Shown here: positions 10,339 through 53,218 of the stretch, one piece after another
Layout of the letters: each line of letters opens with the position of its first letter
How positions within the stretch are numbered: position 1 is the stretch's first letter
NCBI GenBank assembly: GCA_005116745.1
Contig: SWDS01000010.1
Span: forward strand, 120,474-184,473
DNA length: 64,000 nt
Source: Nitrospira sp.
Lineage (GTDB): Bacteria > Nitrospirota > Nitrospiria > Nitrospirales > Nitrospiraceae
Reading direction: 5' to 3'
Notes under the pieces: generated by a model
The model's input: the letters and a program-made list of their open reading frames with translations, nothing else
The model's database searches: none
Told to the model about the DNA's origin: nothing
Program-made: the position numbers and the translations under genes

Positions 10339-11610
10339 ATGCGGGTCCTGTTTCTTTCCCACTATTTTCCTCCTGAGGTGAATGCTCCAGCCTCGCGAAC
10401 GTATGAGCACTGTAAGCAATGGGTGAGGGATGGCCACGAGGTGACGGTCGTGACCTGTGCACCTAATCATCCGCGCGGCAAGGTGTATGAAGGGTATAGC
10501 AACCGTTTCTTTCAACGGGAGGAAAAGGACGAGATTCGAATCATTCGGGTTTGGACCTATGTGACGGCCAATGAGGGTTTCTTTAAACGGACGCTGAACT
10601 ATGTTTCATTTATGGTGTCGTCGATTGTGGCAGCGCTTTGGTTGCCACAATCAGATGTGGTCGTGACGACCTCTCCCCAGTTCTTCAATGGCCTTGCCGG
10701 GTATTTCGTCAGCCGATTAAAACGCATGCCGTGGGTGTTGGAAATCCGAGACCTCTGGCCGGAGTCGATTCTGGCCGTGGGAGCGATTAGGAATAAGGCA
10801 ATTATTCGCATGCTGGAGTGGGTCGAGCTGTTCGCCTACCGAAAGGCTGATCGTATCGTGCCTGTGACCGACGCATTTAAACGGTATATGGTCAAGAAGG
10901 GGATTCCAGCTGAGAAAATCGAGGTCATCAAGAATGGAGTTGATCTGTCCTTCTTCAAGGAAGTCACTGGTCTAAATCCGATTGCGATGGAGCTTGGATT
11001 ACACGGCAAGTTTGTTGCCGCTTACGTTGGAACGCATGGCATGGCGCACTGCCTTGAGACGATTCTGTATTCGGCGCGTGAGCTTAAAGAACGCGAAGAC
11101 ATTGTGATTCTTCTCGTCGGAGATGGAGCCGAACGTCAACGTTTACTGGGAATGCGGGATGAAATGGTGCTCCACAACGTCATCATGCTTGATCAACAAC
11201 CGAAGGAGAAGATGCCCTATCTCTGGGCGCTTTCTGACGTGAGTCTGGTCCTATTGAAGAAGTCCGAGCTGTTCACAACGGTGATCCCCTCCAAGATTTT
11301 CGAAAGCATGGCGATGAAAAAGCCGATCATCCTAGGCGTGGAAGGGGAGAGTGCTGGGATTATCAAAGCTGCTGAGGCCGGTTTCTGTATCGAACCGGAG
11401 AACAGCCACGCACTTGCTGAATGTGTTCTGGAACTCTACAGGAATCGAGATTTGGCAGCGAAGCTCGGTTCAAACGGACGTCGGCATGTTGCGGAGCATT
11501 ACGATCGTACAGTACTGGCAAGGCGATATGAATCTCTGCTGGCATCGCTCATTCTCTCCTCAAGACCCACCGCATCGCCGTTGGTAGATGGAGACCAGCA
11601 ATCACTATAA
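10339..11610 (+). CDS. wbuB: Glycosyltransferase family 4, WbuB-like
   Basis: A 423-residue GT4 enzyme similar in pattern to WbuB, an N-acetyl-L-fucosamine transferase of O-antigen clusters. The N-terminus MRVLFLSHYFPPEVNAPASR is characteristic, followed by EIRDLWPESI and the donor-side VIPSKIFESMAMKKPIILGV. It is the last gene of the polysaccharide operon. Its final 107 codons and the following intergenic DNA are present again at 14509-15049, separated by an IS, a toxin-antitoxin pair and a truncated gene. The central block LELYRNRDL through VLARRYE is identical in both copies while the stretch just upstream is diverged. The functional gene is this copy because only it is full length. Sugar specificity is a guess from family resemblance. 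Confidence 0.85.
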   Translation: MRVLFLSHYFPPEVNAPASRTYEHCKQWVRDGHEVTVVTCAPNHPRGKVYEGYSNRFFQREEKDEIRIIRVWTYVTANEGFFKRTLNYVSFMVSSIVAALWLPQSDVVVTTSPQFFNGLAGYFVSRLKRMPWVLEIRDLWPESILAVGAIRNKAIIRMLEWVELFAYRKADRIVPVTDAFKRYMVKKGIPAEKIEVIKNGVDLSFFKEVTGLNPIAMELGLHGKFVAAYVGTHGMAHCLETILYSARELKEREDIVILLVGDGAERQRLLGMRDEMVLHNVIMLDQQPKEKMPYLWALSDVSLVLLKKSELFTTVIPSKIFESMAMKKPIILGVEGESAGIIKAAEAGFCIEPENSHALAECVLELYRNRDLAAKLGSNGRRHVAEHYDRTVLARRYESLLASLILSSRPTASPLVDGDQQSL

Positions 11611-11719
11611 TAGCGCTGCCGGTAGTCTGCAGGGTCGTCTTCCTCCTATGCTTCAATGACCGTCTGTGCCTCGGCGAACTCGCGCACGCTCACGCACTCA
11701 TTTCAAAATAAGCAGGTAC

Positions 11720-12958
11720 TATCCTGCTCCCCTTGAAATTGAGACCACCTTCACGACATGGTCCTATACGGACTGGGAGGTGAACATGGCAGCAGAATCG
11801 GCAGATCCAGTTGAACGATGGACAGCCAAACGACGCGTGGTGTTGGTGATGAGCATCTTGAAGGGCGAGACTTCCGTGGCCGAGGCGGCTCGCAGACATG
11901 GCCTGACGGTGGCGGAGGTGGAGGACTGGCGGGAGAAGTTTCTGCTGGGCGCCGAGAATGCGCTCCGCACCCGCCCAAAAGACGAAGAGGCCGTCAAGGA
12001 CGAGCAGATCAAGAAGCTCAAGCAGAAGATCGGCGATCTGGTCCTCGATAACGATTATGTTACGGGAGGCCTTGAAACCGTACCCTTTGGACCGGAAGAC
12101 ATCCGACGCGTGAGAGCGACGCTGTTGGGTGTCTCTGAGCGACGGAGCTGCCAGGTGCTCGGTGTCAGCCGAGCCGGTTTGCACCGAGCCACAGGAGCGG
12201 GACGACGCCGAGGCCGCACGGAGCCTCCATGGCTGGAACGGCTGCGGTATTGGATTCAACAGTATCCGACGTTTGGCTATCGCCGGTTGTGGGTGCAGTT
12301 GCGATTCCGAGATGGCATCGTGGTCAATCGGAAGGTGGTCTACCGTGTCCTGAGCCAGAAAGGATGGTTCGTGCATCAACGCGTCTGCACCCCACGCCCT
12401 CGCGTGCAAGGCTGGACGAGTCGGGCGGATCGCAGCAACGAACGATGGGCCATGGATGTGACGCACATTCCCTGTGGGCAGGATGGCTGGGCGCATCTTG
12501 CGGCGGTGATCGATTGTCATGATCGGGAAGTGATCGGCTACGAGTTGGCGCTCCGTAGTCGAGCGAAGGAGGCGGAGCGGGCGGTCGAAGCGGCCTGTCT
12601 ACAGCGATTCGGGACGTTGCGTCCCATGGGCGCACCGGTTCTCCGCAGCGACAATGGGCTGATCTTTCAGAGCCGGCGCTTTCGGCAGGCGTGTCGGGAC
12701 TATCGGCTGCAGCAGGAATTTATCACGCCGTATACGCCGGAGCAGAATGGGATCATCGAACGGTTCTTTCGCAGTCTCAAAGAAGAGTGTATCTGGCAAC
12801 ATGTCTTTCAGACATTCGAGGAGGCGCGACGAGTTATTCGGCAATGGCTCCAGTGGTACAACCACGAACGGCCACATCAAGCGCTCGGGTACCGGAGTCC
12901 CGTCCAATTCCGCGCGCAACAGTCAACCCAGGTGGCTTGATTTTAGGGGAGCACTACA
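11720..12958 (+). mobile_element. IS3-like insertion sequence, about 1.24 kb
   Basis: The element carries one transposase gene and has imperfect inverted ends. The left end contains TGCTCCCCTTGAAATTGAG followed by ACCACCT; the reverse complement of the right end contains TGCTCCCCTAAAATCAAG followed by CCACCT. The right end begins with TG, usual for IS3 elements. It is inserted in the spacer just after the wbuB-like gene, and the same spacer is uninterrupted in the duplicate at 14830-15049, so the IS arrived after the duplication or was never in the second copy. Confidence 0.8.
11786..12940 (+). CDS. IS3-family transposase, single-frame OrfA-OrfB
   Basis: A 384-residue DDE transposase. The first 100 residues are an OrfA-like helix-turn-helix (AARRHGLTVAEVEDWREKFL) followed by a lysine-rich leucine-zipper-like segment. 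The remainder is OrfB with an rve integrase core: DDE residues lie in AMDVTHIPCG, VLRSDNGLIF and EQNGIIERFFRSLKEE. OrfA and OrfB are usually separate frames joined by ribosomal frameshifting; here they are continuous through LDNDYVTGGLETVPFG, so either a fused type or a natural in-frame fusion. The ATG at 11786 is preceded by GGGAGG. An upstream in-frame start at 11666 would extend outside the IS and is rejected. No inactivating change is visible. Confidence 0.88.
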   Translation: MAAESADPVERWTAKRRVVLVMSILKGETSVAEAARRHGLTVAEVEDWREKFLLGAENALRTRPKDEEAVKDEQIKKLKQKIGDLVLDNDYVTGGLETVPFGPEDIRRVRATLLGVSERRSCQVLGVSRAGLHRATGAGRRRGRTEPPWLERLRYWIQQYPTFGYRRLWVQLRFRDGIVVNRKVVYRVLSQKGWFVHQRVCTPRPRVQGWTSRADRSNERWAMDVTHIPCGQDGWAHLAAVIDCHDREVIGYELALRSRAKEAERAVEAACLQRFGTLRPMGAPVLRSDNGLIFQSRRFRQACRDYRLQQEFITPYTPEQNGIIERFFRSLKEECIWQHVFQTFEEARRVIRQWLQWYNHERPHQALGYRSPVQFRAQQSTQVA

Positions 12959-13021
12959 GTACCTGATTCGCTGACGGCGCTCTCCACTGGGTTGCTTAAC
13001 TGCCTCTTTGTTGTCTTCTTC

Positions 13022-13105
13022 TAACTGCCGCGTACGGAAGTGCCGGAAAGCGCTGTTGGAGGGTTGAGGGTGGAGGGAGGAAGAACGTTAGAGATTGGAG
13101 GCGAG
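13022..13105 (+). repeat. Direct repeat R1 upstream of phd-vapC (palindrome plus purine tract)
   Basis: First of two long direct repeats that flank the toxin-antitoxin pair; the second is at 13926-14016. It begins TAACTGCCGCGTACGGAAGT, folds as an imperfect hairpin up to GCGCTGTTGGA, then continues into a purine-rich tract (GGGTTGAGGGTGGAGGGAGG and GTTAGAGATTGGAGG). A shorter third copy of the palindrome part lies at 15017-15049. Confidence 0.75.
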
Positions 13106-13137
13106 AAGGAGAAGGGGTGACATACTCTGATTCACGC

Positions 13138-13163
13138 TGTTGACCATGGTCGTTGACCATGGT
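13138..13163 (+). promoter_or_regulatory. Probable operator of the phd-vapC module
   Basis: Two tandem copies of TTGACCATGGT, each centred on the palindrome ACCATGGT (13143-13150 and 13156-13163), lie directly before the antitoxin start at 13174. Phd-type antitoxins commonly autoregulate by binding tandem short palindromes overlapping their promoter, so this is the likely binding site. Inferred from position and symmetry. Confidence 0.6.
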
Positions 13164-13173
13164 ATGGTCTCGC

Positions 13174-13443
13174 ATGGGAAAAGAGCGCAAACTGTCTGAG
13201 ATCGAAGAAGTCTCGATTTCTCAGTTCAAGGCGACATGCTTGGCGATTCTTGCACGGGTCAAGCGAACGAAGAAGCCTATTCTGGTCCTTCGCAAGGGAG
13301 AGCCGATTGCGCAGGTCGTGCCACCGCCTCTTCCTTCCATCCCTCCCTCGTGGCTAGGTTCATTGTCGAGTTCCGGTGAGATCCTTGGTGATATTCTTGG
13401 CCCAGCCTCCGCTCCGGAGGAATGGGAAGCCTTTCGCGCGTGA
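13174..13443 (+). CDS. Phd/YefM-type antitoxin
   Basis: A protein of about 89 residues with the Phd/YefM DNA-binding fold pattern: EEVSISQFKATCLAILARV followed by KKPILVLRKGEPIAQVVP, which corresponds to the conserved strand-turn-strand after the dimerisation helices. The C-terminal tail, rich in Pro and Ser with ILGDILGP, would wrap the toxin. ATG at 13174 is chosen because it starts just before the fold; a GTG/ATG seven codons upstream lies within the operator repeats. Its stop overlaps the PIN toxin start. Together they form a type II toxin-antitoxin system that autoregulates through the palindromes upstream. Confidence 0.85.
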   Translation: MGKERKLSEIEEVSISQFKATCLAILARVKRTKKPILVLRKGEPIAQVVPPPLPSIPPSWLGSLSSSGEILGDILGPASAPEEWEAFRA

Positions 13444-13835
13444 AGCTTCTGCTCGATACCCACATCCTTCTCTGGAGCGTGCTTGAGCCGGACAAGCTTT
13501 CGACGGAAGTGAAAGCCGAGCTGGAACACGCGCATAATGAACTCTGGCTATCACCCATCACGCTCTGGGAAGTCCATCTACTGGCTGAACGGAAACGGCT
13601 TCAGCTCCGGCCTGATCCTGCAAGGTGGATTGAGCACCTCTTGGCGACGATCCCATTTCGGGAAGCCCCTTTGACGCATGCCGTTGCCCTGATGAGTCGA
13701 CGAATCGATCTTGCCCATCAAGATCCGGCCGATCGATTTCTTGCTGCAACGGTCGTTGTGTACGGCTTGACGTTGCTGACGGCCGATGAGCGCCTTCTTC
13801 AGTCGCATCAGTTCCCCACATTGTCGGCACGATAG
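13422..13835 (+). CDS. PIN-domain toxin, VapC-type ribonuclease
   Basis: A 137-residue PIN ribonuclease of the Sll0205/VapC type. The four acidic metal-ligand positions are visible: LLLDTHILLW near residue 10, TLWEVHLLAE near residue 47, HQDPADRFLAAT near residue 101 and LLTADERLL near residue 118. It is expected to cleave RNA, often tRNA or rRNA, when the partner antitoxin is degraded. ATG at 13422 overlaps the antitoxin end by 22 bases; GTG at 13440 is an alternative. The module is flanked by direct repeats and lies between the intact wbuB-like gene and the duplicated 3' fragment, so it came in as part of a rearrangement. Confidence 0.88.
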   Translation: MGSLSRVKLLLDTHILLWSVLEPDKLSTEVKAELEHAHNELWLSPITLWEVHLLAERKRLQLRPDPARWIEHLLATIPFREAPLTHAVALMSRRIDLAHQDPADRFLAATVVVYGLTLLTADERLLQSHQFPTLSAR

Positions 13836-13925
13836 TATGTGGGATCCTGCGTTCCGTCCTCACAAAGAAACCAGCCCTGGGAACCACTGCCTGCTTTGGT
13901 TTTTGTAATGGTCAGGCAGTACGTC

Positions 13926-14016
13926 CAACTGCCACTTACGGAAGTGCCCGAAATGGCTGTTGGAGGGTTGAGGTTTGAGGGGGGAGGGAGGAAGAATGTT
14001 AGAGGTTCGAGGTGAG
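13926..14016 (+). repeat. Direct repeat R2 downstream of phd-vapC
   Basis: Second copy of the repeat at 13022-13105, with six extra bases in the purine tract. It reads CAACTGCCACTTACGGAAGT, then a complementary right arm GAAATGGCTGTTGG, then GGTTGAGGTTTGAGG and GTTAGAGGTTCGAGG. The stem changes relative to R1 (GCCACTT versus GCCGCGT on the left, AAATGGC versus AAAGCGC on the right) keep much of the pairing. The rest of 13836-14162 has no gene. Confidence 0.75.
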
Positions 14017-14162
14017 TGCTGAAGGTAGATAGTAGAAAAAAGACGTGTGGAGGCGATCGAGAAAGGTTGAGGTTTCGAAGGAAACGGATCAGCGACCAAT
14101 CTCGTCTTGGCGGAGGAAATTGCCGTTGCATGTTTGTGTAGATCGGTCTAGACAAGCGACCT

Positions 14163-14508
14163 ATGAACGCCGAGCAGATGGAAGAGATCAAGCGTCATGT
14201 TGGCGTGGTGGCGGAAGCACTCAGGAGCGATATCCGCCGAATAGCGGAGGGGCACGCCGCTATTCGGCATGAGTTGCAAGAACACCGTGGGGAGATTCGT
14301 GACGAGTTCAAAGAAATGCGGGCCCTCCTGCGGCTCTCATTTTCTCAGCTCGACCAGCGCGTCCACACCCCCGAAACGGATCTTTCCGCCTTGAAAGCCC
14401 GTATGGACCGCCTCGAATCAAGCCGGGCCTACTTCCCGCCGACACCATTCAGTCAACTCACTGCCGAGATCGATCAGGACAGTACAATGTCCCTGATTTC
14501 TTCTTCCC
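14163..14508 (+). pseudogene. Truncated coiled-coil protein of unknown function
   Basis: From ATG 14163, about 115 residues look native. They are charged and helical with heptad-like spacing: MEEIKRHVGVVAEALRSDIR, then EGHAAIRHELQEHRGEIRDE and LDQRVHTPETDLSALKARMD. After residue 115 the frame runs into the duplicated glycosyltransferase DNA read out of frame and stops at 14639, so the original C-terminus is missing. Similar small coiled-coil proteins are frequent near toxin-antitoxin genes in related genomes, in my recollection, but I cannot name a function. It may still be translated as a chimera of 158 residues. Confidence 0.5.
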
Positions 14509-14829
14509 GCCAAACTCTTCGAGAGCATGGCCATGGAGAAACCGATTATCCTGGGAGTGGAAGGGGAGCGCGCCGAACTCGTGATGTCGTCTGGCGGGGG
14601 AGTCTGTATCGAACCGGAGAACAGCCACGAGCTTGCTGAACATCTTCTGGAACTCTACAGAAATCGAGATTTGGCAGCGAAGCTCGGTTCAAACGGACGT
14701 CGGCATGTTGCGGAGCATTACGATCGTACAGTACTGGCACGGCGATATGAATACCTGCTGGTATCGCTCATTCTTTCCTCAAAATCCGCTGCATCGCCAT
14801 TGGTAGATCGAGACCAATCATCACGATGA
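14509..14829 (+). pseudogene. Duplicated 3' fragment of the wbuB-like glycosyltransferase
   Basis: The frame AKLFESMAMEKPIILGVEGE and onward matches the last 107 codons of the gene ending at 11610. From about CIEPENSH to the end the two copies are nearly identical in DNA, including a 36-residue identical block, but the first 35 codons differ at many sites (AELVMSSGGG in place of AGIIKAAEAG). The fragment lacks the N-terminal domain and the first half of the donor domain, so it cannot be an active enzyme. The mosaic identity suggests that it came from a different allele and was then partly homogenised by recombination. The homology continues about 220 bases past its stop. Confidence 0.85.
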
Positions 14830-15049
14830 TGCGCTGTCATAGGGGACAGGTAGTCTGCAGGGTCGTCTTCTCGCTACGCTTCAATGACCGTCTGTGCCTC
14901 GGCGAATGAGGCGAACTCGTGCACGCTCACACACTCATTTCATAATCAGCAGTTATTATGATTCACTGATGGCGCTCGACACTGGGTTGCTCAGCTGCCT
15001 TGTTGTTTTCTTTCTCCAACTGCCACGTACCGAAGTGCCGGAAATGGCC
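14830..15049 (+). repeat. Second copy of the wbuB downstream spacer, with partial repeat R3
   Basis: The spacer matches 11611-11715 joined to 12963-13051. Shared stretches include GGTAGTCTGCAGGGTCGTCT, CAATGACCGTCTGTGCCTCG and ACTGGGTTGCT. It ends with the palindrome arm CAACTGCCACGTACCGAAGT at 15017-15049 but lacks the purine tract of R1 and R2. This is the uninterrupted form of the site that the IS entered in the first copy. The rest up to 15301 has no gene. Confidence 0.8.
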
Positions 15050-15301: not shown

Positions 15302-15982
15302 ATGCCGATGCTCAAGTCATTACTTTGGAGAAGGTTCATTCTGCCGGCTGCTGTGGTGTGTGCCCTTTCGGTTACGGTCACGGCAGCTCAAGCAGCTCTG
15401 GTGAACTATTCGTTCACCGGCAACATCGACGGGATCGCCCCGGTCTTGGCCCCGGTTTCCGGTTCATTTCAATTTGACAGCGACCCCACGAAGAGCGGTG
15501 GTGTCTATAACGGTGTCGTAACAGGGTTCACTCTCAAAATTGGAGGGGGCTTCAGCTATCAAACAACGTTTGCGCCTGGTGCCAATGCCGTCACGATTTC
15601 GCAGAATACCCCTATGGCTGGTGGCAGTGGTGATCGGTGGGCTCTGGTATCCGCAGCTACGGGACCTACCTTGACAGGGACTGATTACTCGCCATTCAGT
15701 TTTGATCTTCGTCTCGACCGTGTGGGTGGGGGATTATTTGGGAATACGAATTTACAGAATCCGCCTAGCTTCGCCGATTTTGCCACGTCGAATTTGACTG
15801 CGGCGAGATGGCGGCTTTTCTTCGAGGATGTGAATGGTAATCCAGCCGTGGTTCTTGGATCAATCAGTAGCCTAACCGCGGTGCCGTTGCCGGCAGGAGT
15901 TGTGTTGTTCGGTATCGGTCTCATTTCGCTGGTCGGGCTGGGTGCAGGGGGGTTGCGAAATCTGCGTGGATCCCAGGCCTAA
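15302..15982 (+). CDS. VPLPA-CTERM sorting-domain exported protein
   Basis: A secreted protein of 226 residues. It begins with a signal peptide (FILPAAVVCALSVTVTAAQA) and ends with the exosortase sorting signal VPLPAGVVLFGIGL, a hydrophobic stretch, then a basic tail LRNLRGSQA. The mature part is rich in Gly, Ser and Thr with beta-strand-like segments and no cysteines, resembling other PEP-CTERM matrix proteins of unknown function. The exosortase at 18204 would cleave the tail and transfer the protein to the cell surface or matrix. ATG at 15302 is chosen because GGAGGAGCGG lies just upstream; an earlier in-frame start would put 24 extra residues before the signal peptide. A perfect hairpin follows the gene. 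Confidence 0.9.
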   Translation: MPMLKSLLWRRFILPAAVVCALSVTVTAAQAALVNYSFTGNIDGIAPVLAPVSGSFQFDSDPTKSGGVYNGVVTGFTLKIGGGFSYQTTFAPGANAVTISQNTPMAGGSGDRWALVSAATGPTLTGTDYSPFSFDLRLDRVGGGLFGNTNLQNPPSFADFATSNLTAARWRLFFEDVNGNPAVVLGSISSLTAVPLPAGVVLFGIGLISLVGLGAGGLRNLRGSQA

Positions 15983-16001
15983 TTAAGAAAATTACTTTTG
16001 A

Positions 16002-16042
16002 GCAAAGGGCGTGATACCTCGTGGTGGTATCACGCCCTTTGC
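16002..16042 (+). terminator. Perfect 17-bp inverted repeat, likely terminator
   Basis: GCAAAGGGCGTGATACC (16002-16018) is repeated in inverse at 16026-16042 around a seven-base loop, 19 bases after the first VPLPA-CTERM gene. The right arm ends in TTTGC and there is no long T tract, so it may act as a processing or stabilising hairpin as well as a terminator. Confidence 0.65.
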
Positions 16043-16236
16043 TATCATCAGCAGGATATTGAAAAAGTCCTCCAACCTCATGGAAGCCAGGGTTGAGAAT
16101 AAGATTTCGCGCATTGAATCTCTACTCAACTCTAACCTCGACCTCAGCCAGTTACGCCGACCTCAGGTAAGGATTCTGTCGCTCTCCACGCCCATTGCGC
16201 ATTCCTCTATGGCTTGATCGTGTGACTTCCTGCCTG

Positions 16237-16362
16237 GCAGGCTGTTGACAAAGTCCGCCAGCAGCGTTCTCGCCTCACTCAGAGGCTCACCGTACGGCAG
16301 AGAGTACGATTCGCCTCTTCGCTTGCTGCGGCCTTGCTGGACAGCCTTTCTGAACAGCCTGC
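16237..16362 (+). repeat. Palindromic dispersed element, copy A (126 bp)
   Basis: Bounded by GCAGGCTGTT and AACAGCCTGC and built of two long complementary halves. The diagnostic internal block, on the reverse strand, is CCAGCAAGGCCGCAGCAAGC followed by GAAGAGGCG. Three more copies occur at 30605, 43934 and 58798. Copy B has exactly the same length in the opposite orientation. No coding capacity; it has the look of a MITE. Confidence 0.85.
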
Positions 16363-16834
16363 GAGACACACTTGTTCCGTCGGTGATCGTAGACCTGGCC
16401 GCATTTCTAACGTCGTCATATGGTTTGTCAACACACTGCTAGGGGAGCGAAACGAGTCCGCTACGTCACGCTCAAATTATGTACAGATCCATTCAGCTCC
16501 ATGTTTACGTGGGATCACTGTTGTGCCTAGAAGGGTTGGGGTTTCGCCCAGTTCAGATATATGTTTCCCTCCTTTATGGTGGGTTTTCCAAAATTAAATG
16601 GCGCAATGTGGATGGTGGCTGATGAGTGATATTGAGACTAACAGGATGTCATGTATCAACTTGAAACAGATTTATGTGAATGGTTATGACTTCAGAGTAT
16701 AGGGATATCAGTACGACTACTTTACGTAGGCATACTGTAGTGTGTAGGTCTTGAATGAAGGCTGATCCATACAGCTACGTTAGGGGAAGATTCGTATATC
16801 AATGAATTATAAGGAAGTGAACGTGATCATCGGT

Positions 16835-16850
16835 TGGCGTGAGAGTTGCT
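16835..16850 (+). promoter_or_regulatory. Probable sigma-54 promoter
   Basis: TGGCGTGAGAGTTGCT matches the RpoN consensus TGGC at -24 and TTGC at -12, with GG and GC ten bases apart. Transcription would start near 16862, giving a leader of about 330 bases before the VPLPA-CTERM gene at 17193. Together with the weaker site before the first VPLPA-CTERM gene it suggests shared RpoN control of sorted surface proteins. Confidence 0.5.
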
Positions 16851-17066
16851 TTTCAAGAACCGATAAGCAACCTCGAAGGCAATATAATTAGTTTCTGATC
16901 CTAATGAGTTGAAAAAGTCTTGACATAGGTATACGAACCTCGTAATAAGGTATCCATATGTATTTCGACTATGAGATAGATGTACGTACGAGCGATATAC
17001 CTATGAAATGAAGTACATAGGTATTTGTTGTCGGACGTGGTCAAGATTCTTTAGAGGAGGGTGTTT

Positions 17067-17111
17067 ATGACTCGCCGTACGTTAGTAGAAGGATCAGCTC
17101 CCGTGCCGTAG
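17067..17111 (+). CDS. Possible 14-residue leader peptide
   Basis: ATG at 17067 follows a strong ribosome site (GAGGAGGG) and encodes MTRRTLVEGSAPVP. Downstream DNA to 17155 has overlapping inverted segments (GGATCAGCT, GATCAGCAGATCCT, AGCTGAGATCC) that could form alternative hairpins before the main start at 17193. This resembles a translation-coupled leader, but coding was not demonstrated. Confidence 0.3.
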   Translation: MTRRTLVEGSAPVP

Positions 17112-17192
17112 ATCAGCAGATCCTCCAGATTCAAAAGCTGAGATCCATATAAAGCTAGTCAAACTAAGCCATTCTTTATACAAGGAGATCGC

Positions 17193-17894
17193 ATGAGTAG
17201 AATTGTACATATCTCAAGAAGTCTCGCGTTGTTGGCCGTGTTGGTGATGTTCGGAGGTGTAGCTGTGGCTCCGGCGATGGCTGCCATAATTACCTATAAT
17301 TTTTCTGGGACTGTGAATTTTGTTGGCAACAATTTGACCCCACCGACACCCGCACCTTTTAATACCGGTGCCTTAAATAATCTGACGGGTACGATGACCG
17401 TCGACAATTCGGATGGAACCTCCGGCGGGGTAATTGGAACGTATACCATTCAGAATATCAATCTCCAAATTGGTACCTACAGCGCGACATTCGGACCAGG
17501 TGGTGGCTTGGTTACCATTCGAAATGGGAACGGTGGTGGAGCTGGGGGGGATCGATTTCTCGTAACTGCGGATGTTGATGGTCCTAATGCTGGAAACCGT
17601 GCCCCTGGAGCGTTTACGATCAACTTGCGTGGGCCGGCGAGTGGGCCGGGGAATGTTTTTACCACCGATGCCTTGCCAAACCCCGCGCCAAGTGTGTCAT
17701 CCTTCACCAATAGAAATATATTTCGTTTGCAGTTTGGAAATGGGAATGGAGACAACAGAGCAGTTCAAGGATTCTTGACTTCGCTCACAGCTGTTCCCTT
17801 ACCGCCTGCCATGATTCTGTTTGGTGTAGGCCTTGTCGCACTGATTGGGCTTGGGGCTGGGGGACTGCGCAACCTCCGATTGCCTCAGGCATAG
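17193..17894 (+). CDS. VPLPA-CTERM sorting-domain exported protein
   Basis: A 233-residue secreted protein, clearly related in design to the one at 15302. It has a signal peptide (LALLAVLVMFGGVAVAPAMA), a Gly/Asn/Thr-rich mature region without cysteine, the sorting motif VPLPPAMILFGVGL and a basic tail LRNLRLPQA. The ends of both proteins share LGAGGLRNLR, so both are likely substrates of the same exosortase at 18204. ATG at 17193 follows CAAGGAGATCGC. The mature domain has repeated strand-rich segments and a GGAGGDRF stretch also seen as GGSGDRW in the first protein. Role: probably a matrix or cell-surface component exported together with the exopolysaccharide. A terminator follows. Confidence 0.9.
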   Translation: MSRIVHISRSLALLAVLVMFGGVAVAPAMAAIITYNFSGTVNFVGNNLTPPTPAPFNTGALNNLTGTMTVDNSDGTSGGVIGTYTIQNINLQIGTYSATFGPGGGLVTIRNGNGGGAGGDRFLVTADVDGPNAGNRAPGAFTINLRGPASGPGNVFTTDALPNPAPSVSSFTNRNIFRLQFGNGNGDNRAVQGFLTSLTAVPLPPAMILFGVGLVALIGLGAGGLRNLRLPQA

Positions 17895-28477: not shown

Positions 28478-29884
28478 ATGTATGAGTCATTCTACCACCT
28501 AAAGGCCAAACCATTCGCCCTTCTTCCGGACAGCAGTTTTCTGTACTCCGGTTCCGAACATCAAGCCGCATACAGTTTGCTGGAGTACGGTCTCCTCAGT
28601 CAGGCGCCGTTTATGGTTCTCACCGGCGAGCCTGGTCTTGGAAAGACATCCCTTCTTCAGAAGCTGGTTGCGGAGCACGGCACTCGACACACGATTGGCT
28701 TGGTCACCAACGCGCGTTACGACATCGAACATCTGTTACCCTGGATTTTGTTGTCTCTTGGATTGAGCACGAAGCGGCTTGATCCGATCGAGGCCTATCA
28801 CATGTTCTCCGAGTTTCTCGCTCAGGAGTCGAAAAGTCATCGACGCGTCATCCTGATCATCGACGAAGCCCAAAATCTGGGTGCCGAACTGCTCGAAGAA
28901 CTCCGCCTTCTCTCCAACTTGAACGATGGCAAGACCTTGAAGCTGCAGATGATCCTCTCCGGGCAACCGGATTTGTATATGTTATTGCAGCGTATGGACA
29001 TGACGCAGTTCGCCCAGCGGATCGTCGTCGATTATCATCTGAAACCACTGACGGACGTCGACACGGGACACTATATTCGTCATCGACTACGAGTCGCCGG
29101 TGGACCGGCGGCTCTTTTTACGAACAAGGCCTGTGCGTTGGTGCATCGCTTGAGCCAAGGCAATCCACGCCTGATCAATCAAGTGTCGGACAGAGCATTG
29201 ACCTACGGATATGCCGAACAGGCCAAAGTCATCACGTCAAAATTGGTGGCTCAAGCGGCGCTTGATCGCACGAAGGGAGGGATTCTTCCTCTGGCGGCTA
29301 AAGAGGAACTGGTTGCGCTGGCCGAGACTCCTGAGGATATGACCGAGGTTGATGACACACTCAGGAGTCTTGGGAAGGACCCTACCACCGAGGACTCGTT
29401 CGACGCTCGTCGCCCCGATTCTCCAGAGGAGGCGTACGCCCTTGGAGTGGCGCTCAAGAGCCACGGTCGGTTTAAAGAGGCTGTGGACATGTTTCATGTT
29501 GCCGCACAGGGCGAGTCGATGTGGCTGAAGTCTCATGCTCAGGTCGGTCTCTGTTATAGAAGGATGGGAGAACATCAAGCGGCTATCCAAGCATTTCGCA
29601 CGGCACTGGAGGATCCGTCTGCTCCGGCGAACGAGAGTATTGATGTTTTGTATTTCCTTGGGCACAGTCTCAAGTTTACCGGGCAGACCGAGGAAGCTCT
29701 TGCAATCTATAGTCGCATCAACCAGTTGAACCCAGGGTTTAAAGACGTTGCCGATCGAGTGATGGGGTTGCGGCAAGTCCTGAAACAGGCGGGCTCAGGC
29801 GGGGCGCCGGCTCTGCCGAATAACCCAGGGTCTCGAGGGCCGGTTGGGAAATTTTTGCATTTTTTATTCGGCCGCAAGAGCTAG
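28478..29884 (+). CDS. ExeA-like AAA ATPase of exosortase systems with C-terminal TPRs
   Basis: A 468-residue protein beginning MYESFYHLKAKPFALLPDSS, the signature start of the GspA/ExeA-like ATPase in PEP-CTERM loci. Walker A is TGEPGLGKTSLL near residue 47 and Walker B is VILIIDEAQNL near residue 128, with the conserved QPDLYMLLQ and FAQRIVVDYHL downstream. After an acidic linker, residues about 315-430 form TPR-like repeats (AVDMFHVAA, AIQAFRTAL, ALAIYSRI) that are not part of the usual ATPase. The same repeat block reappears as a separate small protein at 30100. It likely energises or regulates EPS secretion or sorting. Confidence 0.85.
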   Translation: MYESFYHLKAKPFALLPDSSFLYSGSEHQAAYSLLEYGLLSQAPFMVLTGEPGLGKTSLLQKLVAEHGTRHTIGLVTNARYDIEHLLPWILLSLGLSTKRLDPIEAYHMFSEFLAQESKSHRRVILIIDEAQNLGAELLEELRLLSNLNDGKTLKLQMILSGQPDLYMLLQRMDMTQFAQRIVVDYHLKPLTDVDTGHYIRHRLRVAGGPAALFTNKACALVHRLSQGNPRLINQVSDRALTYGYAEQAKVITSKLVAQAALDRTKGGILPLAAKEELVALAETPEDMTEVDDTLRSLGKDPTTEDSFDARRPDSPEEAYALGVALKSHGRFKEAVDMFHVAAQGESMWLKSHAQVGLCYRRMGEHQAAIQAFRTALEDPSAPANESIDVLYFLGHSLKFTGQTEEALAIYSRINQLNPGFKDVADRVMGLRQVLKQAGSGGAPALPNNPGSRGPVGKFLHFLFGRKS

Positions 29885-49832: not shown

Positions 49833-52241
49833 ATGAGACCGATGACAACTGAAACGACTCAAATTTCCCCTGATGTGGTGCAGGTCAAGATTGTTCCGAT
49901 CATTGCCAAGGAGCTCAGCGTTGGGGCCCATCAAGTTGCAGCAGCGATCACGCTGCTCGACGAAGGGGCCACGGTGCCCTTCATTGCGCGCTATCGGAAA
50001 GAGGCGACTGGTAACCTGGACGATACACACCTGCGCACGCTGGAGGAACGGTTGCTCTATCTGCGCGAATTGGAGGAGCGCCGCACTGCTGTCTTGGTTT
50101 CGATCGAGGAACAGGGGAAGCTCACGGATGCATTGCGGGCGAGCATTGAGGCCGCGGCCACCAAGCAGGCTGTCGAAGATCTGTACCTCCCCTTCAAACC
50201 GAAGCGACGCACACGCGCGCAGATTGCCCGCGAAGCTGGGTTGGAACCGTTGGCCGATAGTCTCTTGGCTGATCCGAGGTTGGATCCCGAGCAAGAAGCG
50301 CTCAAGTACATACGCGTTGTGCCGGCTGCCGAAGGGGTGGAGGCGATCAATGTGCCTGATGCCAAGACTGCGCTGGAAGGGGCACGGGACATTCTGATGG
50401 AGCGGTTTGCGGAAACGGCCGATCTCTTAGCCGTGTTGCGGACTCGGCTGTGGGATCAGGGTGTCCTCACGTCGACGGTGATGAAAGACAAGGAAACGGC
50501 GGAAGAGGAGAAGTTTCGTGACTACTATGCGTATGCGGAGTCGATCAAGACTATACCGTCGCATCGGGCTCTTGCATTATTCCGAGGTCGTTCGCTGGGA
50601 GTCTTGAAACTTGAATTGGGTTTAGGTGAGGCGCTGGACAAGGTCGTTCCCCATCCCTGCGTATCAACGATTGCGGCTCACGCGGGCATCGAAGATCGAG
50701 GGCGATCTGCGGACAAGTGGCTAGCCGGTGTGTGCGAATGGACGTGGCGTGTCAAGATGCATCTCCAGATCAGTACCGAACTCTTGGTGCAGTTGCGCGA
50801 AGCCGCCGAGGCCGAGGCGATCAAGATTTTTGCCAGGAATCTGCATGAATTGTTATTGGCGTCACCGGCTGGGCCAAAAGTGATCCTCGGTTTGGATCCA
50901 GGTATTCGCACCGGATGCAAAGTGGCGGTGGTCGATGCCACAGGGAAATTATTGGCGACCGAAACCATCTATCCGCATCAGCCTCGCAATGATTGGCAGG
51001 GGTCGTTGCAGGCACTTGTTCGTCTCGTCGTTCAACATGGCGTGGAATTGCTGTCCATTGGGAATGGAACGGCTAGTCGTGAGACGGATAAGTTGGCGGG
51101 TGAGGTGATCAAGCTGGTCGCCACGCAACGACCAGAACACAATGTTATGAAACTCGTGGTGAGTGAGGCAGGGGCGTCGGTCTATTCGGCCTCGGCCTTT
51201 GCCGCGGCCGAGTTCCCAGAGTTGGATGTCAGTGTGCGAGGCGCGGTGTCGATTGCTCGGCGCGTACAGGATCCGTTGGCCGAGCTGGTGAAGATTGAGC
51301 CGAAGGCGATCGGAGTGGGACAGTATCAGCATGATGTTGATCAGCGGGCCTTGGCTCGGTCGCTGGATGCTACGGTTGAAGATTGCGTCAACGCCGTCGG
51401 CGTGAACGTCAACACGGCTTCGGTGCCTTTATTGGAACGGGTCTCGGGCCTCAATAAGGCATTGGCCAGGAATATTGTGGACTATCGCAACGCAAACGGG
51501 CCGTTTCTAAATCGGTCGGCGATTCGCAAGGTTCCGCGTCTTGGTGAAAAAACATTCGAACAGGCGGCAGGCTTTCTGCGCATCCCCGATGGCGACAATC
51601 CCTTGGATCGGTCCGCGGTGCACCCAGAGGCCTATCCGGTGGTTGAGCGCATTCTGACGCGACTGGGAGCCGGGATTACCGACGTGATGCGTCAGCCGGC
51701 GGTCTTGAAGGGCTTGGCGCCGGCTGATTTTACCGATGAGCAATTCGGGGTGCCGACGGTACGGGATATTTTTGTCGAGCTGGAAAAGCCAGGCCGAGAT
51801 CCTCGTCCAGAATTCAAAACGGCAAGTTTCCGGGAGGGGGTTGAATCTCTGAGCGATCTGCAGGCCGGCATGGTGTTGGAGGGAGTGGTCACGAATGTGG
51901 CGGCCTTCGGGGCCTTCGTGGATATCGGCGTGCATCAGGATGGGCTTGTGCATGTGTCGGCGCTGGCCAATAAATTTATCAAAGATCCACACGAGGTGGT
52001 CAAACCGGGTCAGATCGTCAAGGTGAAGGTCATCGACGTTGATCTGAAGCGTCAGCGGATTGCACTGACGATGCGTCTGGAGGATGCGGCCAGCCGTCCA
52101 TCTGGTCAGGCACAGCCTGGGAGCCAGGCAACACGTGACTCGCGTGGGCGTGGGCCGTCGGTGTCTAGCCAGACGGCGCGAGCGCCTCAGCCGATCAGCG
52201 CGATGGCGTTGGCATTGGCAAAGGCGAGACAGAAGTCATAA
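49833..52241 (+). CDS. tex: Tex-family S1 RNA-binding transcription accessory protein
   Basis: An 802-residue cytosolic protein with the Tex domain order: helical N-terminus, YqgF/RNaseH-like fold ([20 protein letters not shown] near residue 350), helix-hairpin-helix repeats ([20 protein letters not shown] and [18 protein letters not shown]), and a C-terminal S1 domain ([20 protein letters not shown]). Tex binds nucleic acid and affects transcription; exact role unclear. The last 84 codons are repeated at 52928-53179 after a toxin-antitoxin pair, with eight residue differences and no indels. Homology of the two copies extends about 25 bases past the stop. Confidence 0.92.
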
Positions 52242-52371
52242 TAAACATCCAATCGAACAGGCGTTAGGGAAAGCGATGGGTTATCCCTCTACTAGACCCT
52301 CAATCCTAACCCTGCTCAGTTGACGCATGAAGGAAAGTGTCCTAAAGTGATGTTCTGCGAGGTGATCGGCC

Positions 52372-52554
52372 ATGGCTACCGATACGATGAAACAAAAGAT
52401 TCTGCAGGTCGTCCAGGGGCTTCCTGACACGGCCACATTTGAGGACGCGATCGAACGGCTCTGTTTCCTCGCAAAGGTCGAAGAGGGCATACGCCAATCT
52501 GATGCCGGTGAAACGGTGCCTCATGCCGAAGCCGTTCGTCAGCTCCTCACATGA
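52372..52554 (+). CDS. Putative antitoxin partner of the ParE-like toxin
   Basis: A 60-residue protein, MATDTMKQKILQVVQGLPDT then FEDAIERLCFLAKVEEGIRQ, with two helices and a short tail. Its stop overlaps the toxin start by four bases, the usual arrangement of relBE/parDE antitoxin-toxin pairs. No classical ribbon-helix-helix is evident, but the pattern (DTATFEDAIERL) is shared with small antitoxin-like proteins that precede ParE toxins. Assignment rests mainly on context. Confidence 0.75.
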   Translation: MATDTMKQKILQVVQGLPDTATFEDAIERLCFLAKVEEGIRQSDAGETVPHAEAVRQLLT

Positions 52555-52841
52555 CTCCGCTGATCTGGACTCGTCGAGCCATAGAAGATGTTCGCTCCAT
52601 CAGGCAGTTCATTGCCCAAGACTCTCCTCACTACGCTGAACTTGTCAGGCAACAACTGATTGCAGCAGTCGAGCGATTGCCTACCTTCCCTCAATCCGGA
52701 CGTGTCGTCCCGGAAGCCAATAATCCAGCGATTCGGGAGGTGATCCAAGGCTCCTACCGAATCGTCTATCGGCTCATTCATGGCGAGATCCATATTCTCA
52801 CCGTTCACCACGCCGCCCGCCTCCTCCATTTGGAGTCGTGA
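52551..52841 (+). CDS. RelE/ParE-family toxin
   Basis: A 96-residue toxin of the RelE/ParE superfamily. The family layout is intact: [20 protein letters not shown] (N-terminal helices), [19 protein letters not shown], then [20 protein letters not shown] and the final [11 protein letters not shown] strand. ParE types poison gyrase, RelE types cleave mRNA; residues RSYRIVYR-like favour the ParE side but do not decide. Located between the intact tex gene and a duplicate of its 3' end. Confidence 0.87.
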
Positions 52842-52927
52842 TTTCGTGTACTTTTGGGTGGTATTGCAGCACAGCATTCAATGCACATGCCCGGCCCCAA
52901 CCTGATCCTCAATTTCTTGAAGACCAG

Positions 52928-53179
52928 CACGAGGTGGTCAAACCGGGGCAGATCGTTAAGGCGAAGGTGATCGATGTCGATCTGAAGCATCAGCGGATTG
53001 CGCTGACGATGCGACTTGAAGATGCCGCGAGCCGCCCATCTGCTCAGGCACAGCCTGGGAGCCAATCCGCGCGTGACTCGCGCGGGCGTGGGCCGTCGGT
53101 GTCGAGCCAGGCGGCGCGAGTGCCTCAGCCGATCGGGGCGATGGCGTTGGCATTGGCGAAGGCCAGGCAAAAGTCATAA
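52928..53179 (+). pseudogene. Duplicated 3' end of tex
   Basis: Eighty-three codons that align without gaps to the tex C-terminus (from [11 protein letters not shown] to AKARQKS), with eight residue differences. It preserves part of the S1 domain and the low-complexity tail, and cannot function alone. Homology begins sharply at about 52921 and continues about 25 bases past the stop. The level of divergence suggests it came from a related strain and is not a fresh local duplication. Confidence 0.88.
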
Positions 53180-53218
53180 GGAACGTCCTATCGTAAGGGG
53201 AGGTACACAGAGCAATAG

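Follow-up and report, generated by a model that had tools for sequence, protein, structure and literature searches.

Toxin–antitoxin cassettes set between the 3′ ends of genes in Nitrospira: a variant of the insertion described for restriction–modification systems

In a window of 64,000 nt from Nitrospira sp. (GCA_005116745.1, contig SWDS01000010.1, positions 120,474-184,473 of the forward strand), a predicted type II toxin–antitoxin (TA) pair, composed of a Phd/YefM antitoxin gene overlapping a PIN toxin gene (phd-vapC), lies between the intact wbuB-like glycosyltransferase gene and a second, displaced and partly foreign 3′ end of the same gene. Events of this kind are not limited to wbuB and form a genome-wide and genus-wide class: about eleven loci in the 1.64 Mb scanned consist of a gene with a small cargo behind it and, beyond the cargo, a displaced copy of its 3′ end or spacer, and ten of them carry TA genes. 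Such cassettes represent an apparently new variant of the insertion with long target duplication described for restriction–modification (RM) systems. It is probable that TA genes, at times accompanied by a bystander gene, are brought in behind chromosomal genes through recombination, with the gene 3′ end and its spacer acting as homology arm. The recurrence of the layout points to a transposase-free route for the spread of TA genes through gene ends.

The repeat scan, in which local direct repeats were listed, covered 1.64 of 3.86 Mb (43%) of the genome; repeat pairs due to paralogues, to repetitive proteins or to a dispersed repeat with 17 copies (C10:27626) were excluded. All PIN, ParE and DUF433 profile matches in the genome were taken as the toxin set, and twelve of them fall in the scanned part. 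Seven of these twelve are situated between non-dispersed direct repeats, compared to 2.9% of random 300-nt positions (binomial, about 1e-8); with clusters counted once, the figure becomes 5 of 10 (about 5e-6). The three families were picked after some members had been seen at repeats, which makes the test less than fully blind, although PIN and ParE are in any event widespread among toxins. At eight or more loci, the direct repeats on both sides of the insert are long (118-455 bp).

Anatomy of the wbuB locus and origin of its second end

The locus runs in the order Hep gene, wbuB, spacer A with an insertion sequence (IS), phd-vapC, spacer B, coiled-coil gene, second wbuB 3′ end, spacer C and PEP-CTERM gene:

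10339-11610, + strand: wbuB-like glycosyltransferase gene, intact, encoding 423 aa with family 4 and group 1 glycosyltransferase domains; many Nitrospira genomes have an orthologue
11287-11610, + strand: wbuB 3′ end, copy 1, within the intact gene
11611-13105, + strand: spacer copy A, downstream of wbuB, split by the IS
11716-12968, + strand: IS with DDE (rve) transposase (PF13683, PF00665, HTH_21) and imperfect inverted ends
13174-13443, + strand: Phd/YefM-like antitoxin gene (PF02604, E=1.2e-5, just below the gathering score), overlapping vapC by 4 nt
13440-13835, + strand: VapC-like PIN toxin gene (PF01850, E=2.9e-15, above the cut-off); homologues in relatives G051, G042, G043 and G052
13922-14016, + strand: spacer copy B (end of the wbuB spacer, after phd-vapC), 85% identical to 13020-13081 and 87% to 13059-13105; its motif is unique to the locus
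14163-14429, + strand: coiled-coil gene, 89 aa; 81% aa identity to the G051:C20 homologue, about 65-80% in other genomes
14504-14622, + strand: displaced wbuB 3′ end, head, foreign allele (G051/G026/G030 type), 90-92% identical to those alleles
14605-14829, + strand: displaced wbuB 3′ end, remainder, own-type allele (79/80 across the central block), as far from G034 as copy 1 is
14830-15044, + strand: spacer copy C, 84-93% identical to spacer A, running into the host PEP-CTERM flank, which from 15135 matches G034 at 77%
15302-15982, + strand: PEP-CTERM-type gene, directly after wbuB in empty-site relatives

The original prediction, made on this stretch without database searches, correctly recognized the intact wbuB-like gene, the phd-vapC pair (13174-13835) and a second copy of the last 107 codons followed by a spacer of ~220 bases. 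This copy occupies 14504/14506-14829, and its spacer, of about 215 nt, reaches 15044; the genome search returns it with E=3.5e-124 and 81% identity over ~455 bp, which excludes chance. The spacer is where that prediction fell short: two copies were implied, and the second end indeed has one, but there are three, marked by the motif CTGCCNCNTACNGAAGTGCC, whose exact form is found at only 3 sites in the 3.86-Mb genome (13025, 13929 and 15020, in spacers A, B and C, respectively). The distribution of these copies indicates that phd-vapC possesses its own flanking pair, nested in the larger repeat pair. The same motif was considered as the end of a mobile element and rejected, being exact only at the three local copies, with matches across the genus that look like background.

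The segment inserted at wbuB is composite, comprising the TA pair and an unrelated coiled-coil gene. The latter had been described as truncated; it is present, but complete to its last codons (relatives have 89 aa, ending ...LETHRA), and only its stop is gone, with an out-of-frame run-on to 14639. A role for this gene as part of the TA system was rejected, as it is an ordinary accessory gene, often beside ankyrin-repeat genes in other genomes, where its neighbours are not TA genes. The IS, delimited by inverted arms at 11710-11733 and 12945-12968, is a later arrival in spacer A. Downstream of wbuB, tandem PEP-CTERM paralogues extend over 15302-17894, and their copy number varies among relatives.

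The two wbuB ends are not uniformly similar. From 5′ to 3′, the identities are 47/60, 21/41, 58/64, 79/80 (central block) and 65/80, with a near-identical centre and a diverged upstream part, and this uneven profile rejects a uniform recent tandem duplication. At the sites equivalent to 11346-11386, copy 2 agrees with G051 at 39/41, with G030 at 38/41 and with G026 at 37/41, vs 21/41 for the resident gene. The first ~100 bp of the second end are the allele of another Nitrospira clade, and beyond a shared run TCTGTATCGAACCGGAGAAC the sequence is of local type; both local-type 3′ parts are equally distant from the nearest relative, G034. On this sequence comparison, the second wbuB end is a recombinant, with the crossover placed within about 20 nt common to the foreign and local alleles (14602-14623). 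The suggestion that the second end came from another allele is thereby borne out for its 5′ ~100 bp (39/41 to G051), but not for the remainder, which is local.

The proposed search for relatives without the module was fruitful: in 16 of them, the wbuB and PEP-CTERM matches lie 301-476 bp apart in uninterrupted order, vs 3.7 kb here. In G051, two further wbuB ends, which share 94-95% identity, stand behind wbuB, and the three ends are separated by cargo that includes a coiled-coil gene and DUF4160/DUF2442 with a PIN toxin, with MNT-HepT after the last end. In G034, the wbuB/PEP-CTERM gap holds two pairs, one MazF-type and one DUF433-DUF5615, without extra ends; in G026, a contig starts with an orphan wbuB end, after which comes DUF6883-DUF4926. 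A phd-vapC pair with 90% nucleotide identity to that of the window is found in G010 (L024 5913-6347) at the equivalent place, just before the PEP-CTERM gene; its vapC is internally deleted, an IS630-like gene lies upstream, and no wbuB was found there. In G035, a 958-bp repeat (80%) of the wbuB end and the PEP-CTERM start surrounds other cargo, on a scaffold with N runs. Between the two copies of this repeat (L093 10365-13094) lie two thymidylate-kinase-like genes and an IS110-type transposase. Neither of the two arrangements named as contrary to the original prediction was seen: there is no uniform tandem duplicate, and no tandem 3′ ends with nothing between them among the loci read.

Recurrence across the genome and the genus

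The window itself holds a second case of the layout, tex-parDE-tex3′ (49833-53193), where no IS is present:

49833-52241, + strand: tex, intact, with Tex/HHH/S1 domains
52372-52554, + strand: short antitoxin-like gene before parE, an open reading frame of 60 aa with a 4-nt overlap with parE
52551-52841, + strand: ParE toxin gene (PF05016, E=7.6e-17)
52911-53193, + strand: displaced tex 3′ end, 86% identical to 51973-52255

The remaining loci of the scanned genome are:

wecB, followed by as many as three extra ends, with DUF4160, DUF6883 and a broken ParE
amidohydrolase gene with TacAT
hydrolase gene with HipA
DUF1810 gene with Gp49-type and CopG genes
PIN gene with DUF433-DUF5615
spacer array with MNT-HepT and DUF433-DUF5615
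hypC spacer with YefM-YoeB
DCC1-like gene with HTH_37 and BrnA-type genes
HEAT-repeat gene with DUF2130, with no TA pair inside

A few more spacer repeat pairs enclose no TA gene. No transposase or integrase is evident in the tex, amidohydrolase, wecB and hydrolase loci, and comparison by eye revealed no evident shared motif at the repeat boundaries, which vary from gene to gene.

The layout is also variable across the genus. The complete tex-parDE-tex3′ arrangement is found in G007 at 94% identity; in G039 and G077, the tex end is 95% identical and the remainder is unmatched, corresponding to an empty site, and in G064, G028 and G023 a second tex end occurs at about equal distance, with no parDE match. 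Extra wecB ends with cassettes are present in many genomes, with similar arrays in G026, G054, G039, G003, G068 and G070, the last of which has two wecB cassettes in the opposite order. TacAT follows the amidohydrolase gene in G000, G063 (99%), G028 and G003, and the site is empty in G019 and G054 at 95-97% identity.

The substitutions that separate the copies bear on the source of the displaced ends. A 3′ fragment without its gene should gather mostly non-synonymous changes, about 76% being expected (about 24% synonymous). The ratio of synonymous to non-synonymous differences between copies is 19:8 for tex, 13:4 for wecB, 34:5 for the HEAT gene and 25:6 for the G051 wbuB copies, with 12:11 and 18:13 for the DUF1810 copies; the DCC1-like copies are left out of these counts, since an indel invalidates their ungapped codon comparison. 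Furthermore, wecB copy 3 is 83% identical to wecB of G022 vs 77% to its own gene. The mostly synonymous differences imply, for several pairs, that the displaced end had been functional as an allele in another place and is not a local duplicate in decay. Judged from these substitution patterns, displaced ends appear to be foreign alleles more often than local duplicates.

Several of these loci have further details of their own. At the wecB locus (G000:C10:100001-120000, L216 13858-18042), the order is wecB, DUF4160, wecB end, a ParE gene broken by TAG, another (third) wecB end and DUF6883, closing with a weak fourth end. A dispersed repeat of ~96 bp (G000:C10:115052-115147) lies within this array, occurs twice more in G000:C8 and is not in the array of G007; its identity across many Nitrospira genomes is about 77-98%, and it has the look of a small mobile repeat without coding capacity. 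In the DUF1810 array (G000:C6:440001-460000, L235 2610-8584), several DUF1810 fragments are split by Gp49/HigB-like, CopG-type and other small genes. The PIN gene with an in-frame stop (G000:C8:120001-140000, L204 5244-8076) has its 3′ end repeated twice, at 94-95%, around DUF433-DUF5615. A dispersed 128-bp repeat is found at G000:C10:27626-27753 and 29697-29824, and 17 further copies occur elsewhere in the 1.64 Mb scanned.

Probable route of insertion and competing explanations

The layout, its recurrence, the empty sites and the foreign alleles in displaced ends are observed; from them, we infer a recombination route, the order of its steps and the preservation of repeats by TA addiction. 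The incoming DNA would come from another Nitrospira lineage and carry the cargo with a stretch of that lineage's homologous gene end. One side would be joined by crossover in the common gene end, and the other junction would be formed in the spacer or illegitimately, so that the resident gene would remain whole and a second 3′ end would be left past the cargo. At wbuB, the right-hand crossover would fall in the ~20 nt common to the foreign and local alleles, and phd-vapC with its own spacer copy would be a separate nested step; no fewer than two nested steps are required, given that phd-vapC has spacer copies of its own on both sides. The idea of a foreign phd-vapC segment integrated within the gene 3′ end is in this respect largely right for the right-hand junction and too simple for the whole, in which the segment is composite and the steps are nested. 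Repeated rounds at one gene end would give arrays of TA cassettes divided by gene ends, and TA addiction would prevent the resolution of the unstable repeats. Either one homologous plus one illegitimate junction or the single-crossover entry of a circle would yield the layout equally well.

A bolder version of this route, which we regard as possible but doubtful, treats the modules as integrase-free TA cassettes: recombination between flanking ends would free a circle containing the TA pair and one gene end, which host recombination would re-insert at the end of the same gene in another cell or species, the toxin punishing loss and the gene ends serving as attachment sites.

Several findings weigh against the recombination route. 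Between the local-type part of wbuB copy 2 and copy 1 there are 5 synonymous and 11 non-synonymous differences, a neutral-like pattern; this part fits a plain local duplication, and part of the wbuB repeat may be a true target duplication. The 5:11 pattern is expected if the local-type part is the resident end left behind. Five of the twelve toxins have no flanking repeats, and no second 3′ end was detected at some occupied sites (at tex in G054 and G004, and behind the amidohydrolase gene in G063, G028 and G003), where the duplication was either lost afterwards or is not obligatory; loss of the repeat would leave a TA pair without a trace of its arrival route. Finally, no junction was seen forming, and the closest available relative has a WbuB only 86% identical.

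Strict insertion with long target duplication, in which the TA module inserts, the host gene end is copied in place and the copies drift, as proposed for Helicobacter RM systems, shares the anatomy of a transposase-less addiction module with long variable repeats (118-455 bp here) and has the RM precedent on its side (PMC3874152, PMC3031569 and PMC1643837). It also accommodates the neutral-like pattern in the local-type part of wbuB copy 2. It is nevertheless unlikely, as the head of this copy is the allele of another clade and wecB copy 3 is nearer to the wecB of another genome than to its own; the mostly synonymous divergence of the tex, wecB, HEAT and G051 wbuB ends, unexpected for a non-functional local copy, already weakens it. 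Taken together, foreign heads and synonymous divergence favour the recombination of homologous DNA from outside over the copying of a resident target.

A site-specific, integron-like system, with gene ends as the recombination sites of an unlinked recombinase, would account for arrays of short cargo, for one repeated element per cassette and for the altered order in G070, but is very improbable: the boundaries differ by gene, and their lack of any evident common motif speaks against an enzyme of that type; each host gene has its own repeat sequence, and the loci read contain no recombinase. Even less credible is hotspot noise, that is, gene-poor spacers gathering TA genes and local repeats independently. 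The five toxins outside repeats and the few repeat pairs without a TA gene are what it would predict, but it is contradicted by the 20-fold enrichment of toxins between repeats, by repeats that start inside coding sequence and include the gene's end, and by several genomes being hit at the same genes. The least plausible explanation is that an adjacent IS carried the TA pair, with the repeats as by-products. IS genes do occur nearby, in spacer A (11716-12968), in the G035 insert (IS110-type) and beside the G010 phd-vapC (IS630-like); however, the spacer A element has its own ends and brackets neither the TA pair nor anything else, and no IS is evident at the tex, wecB, amidohydrolase and hydrolase loci.

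Relation to known systems

RM systems, which are also addiction modules, are reported to be inserted with long variable target duplications of the order of 100 bp, as described for RM gene complexes by Nobusato et al. 2000 (Gene 259:99) and Furuta et al. 2010 and as quoted in PMC3874152, PMC3031569 and PMC1643837. The Nitrospira loci resemble them in having an addiction module without its own transposase or integrase, variable direct repeats of ~100 bp or more and a single copy in insert-free siblings. They differ in cargo, which consists of type II TA pairs stacked into arrays, and in the extra copy, which is often the functional allele of another lineage; only the local-type part of wbuB copy 2 fits a resident duplicate. 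No paper in the literature searched reports TA modules entering with long duplications of gene ends. Homology-facilitated illegitimate recombination (PMC3240628), which combines a homologous with an illegitimate junction, would account for the ends seen here; its known setting is DNA uptake in the laboratory, and it is not known as a recurrent TA route.

The arrays recall superintegrons with TA modules in their small cassettes, many of them TA, in the repeated element between cassettes and in an order that varies among genomes. Unlike in superintegrons, what is repeated here is an ordinary gene's end, which is different at each locus; no attC-like common site is evident at the boundaries, and the exact wbuB spacer motif is nowhere else in the genome. 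No integrase is present in the loci read, although no genome search aimed at IntI was made. The cargo is not bracketed by IS copies or terminal inverted repeats, as it would be in composite transposons: a single IS lies inside spacer A, and there is none at tex. In Rhs and other polymorphic-toxin loci, orphan C-terminal tips are displaced 3′ ends downstream of new cargo; the host genes in Nitrospira differ from these in being metabolic or housekeeping genes, with ends that are not toxic.

The movement of chromosomal TA genes without a carrying mobile element is a long-standing gap. Displaced, allele-tagged gene ends, often several per locus, make donors, recipients, arrival order and loss readable from sequence. 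The addiction hypothesis is directly testable at these loci, where collapsible repeats persist with a TA pair lying between them. For five compared Nitrospira genomes, a published table lists 4 to 50 TA systems per genome (PMC7522533).

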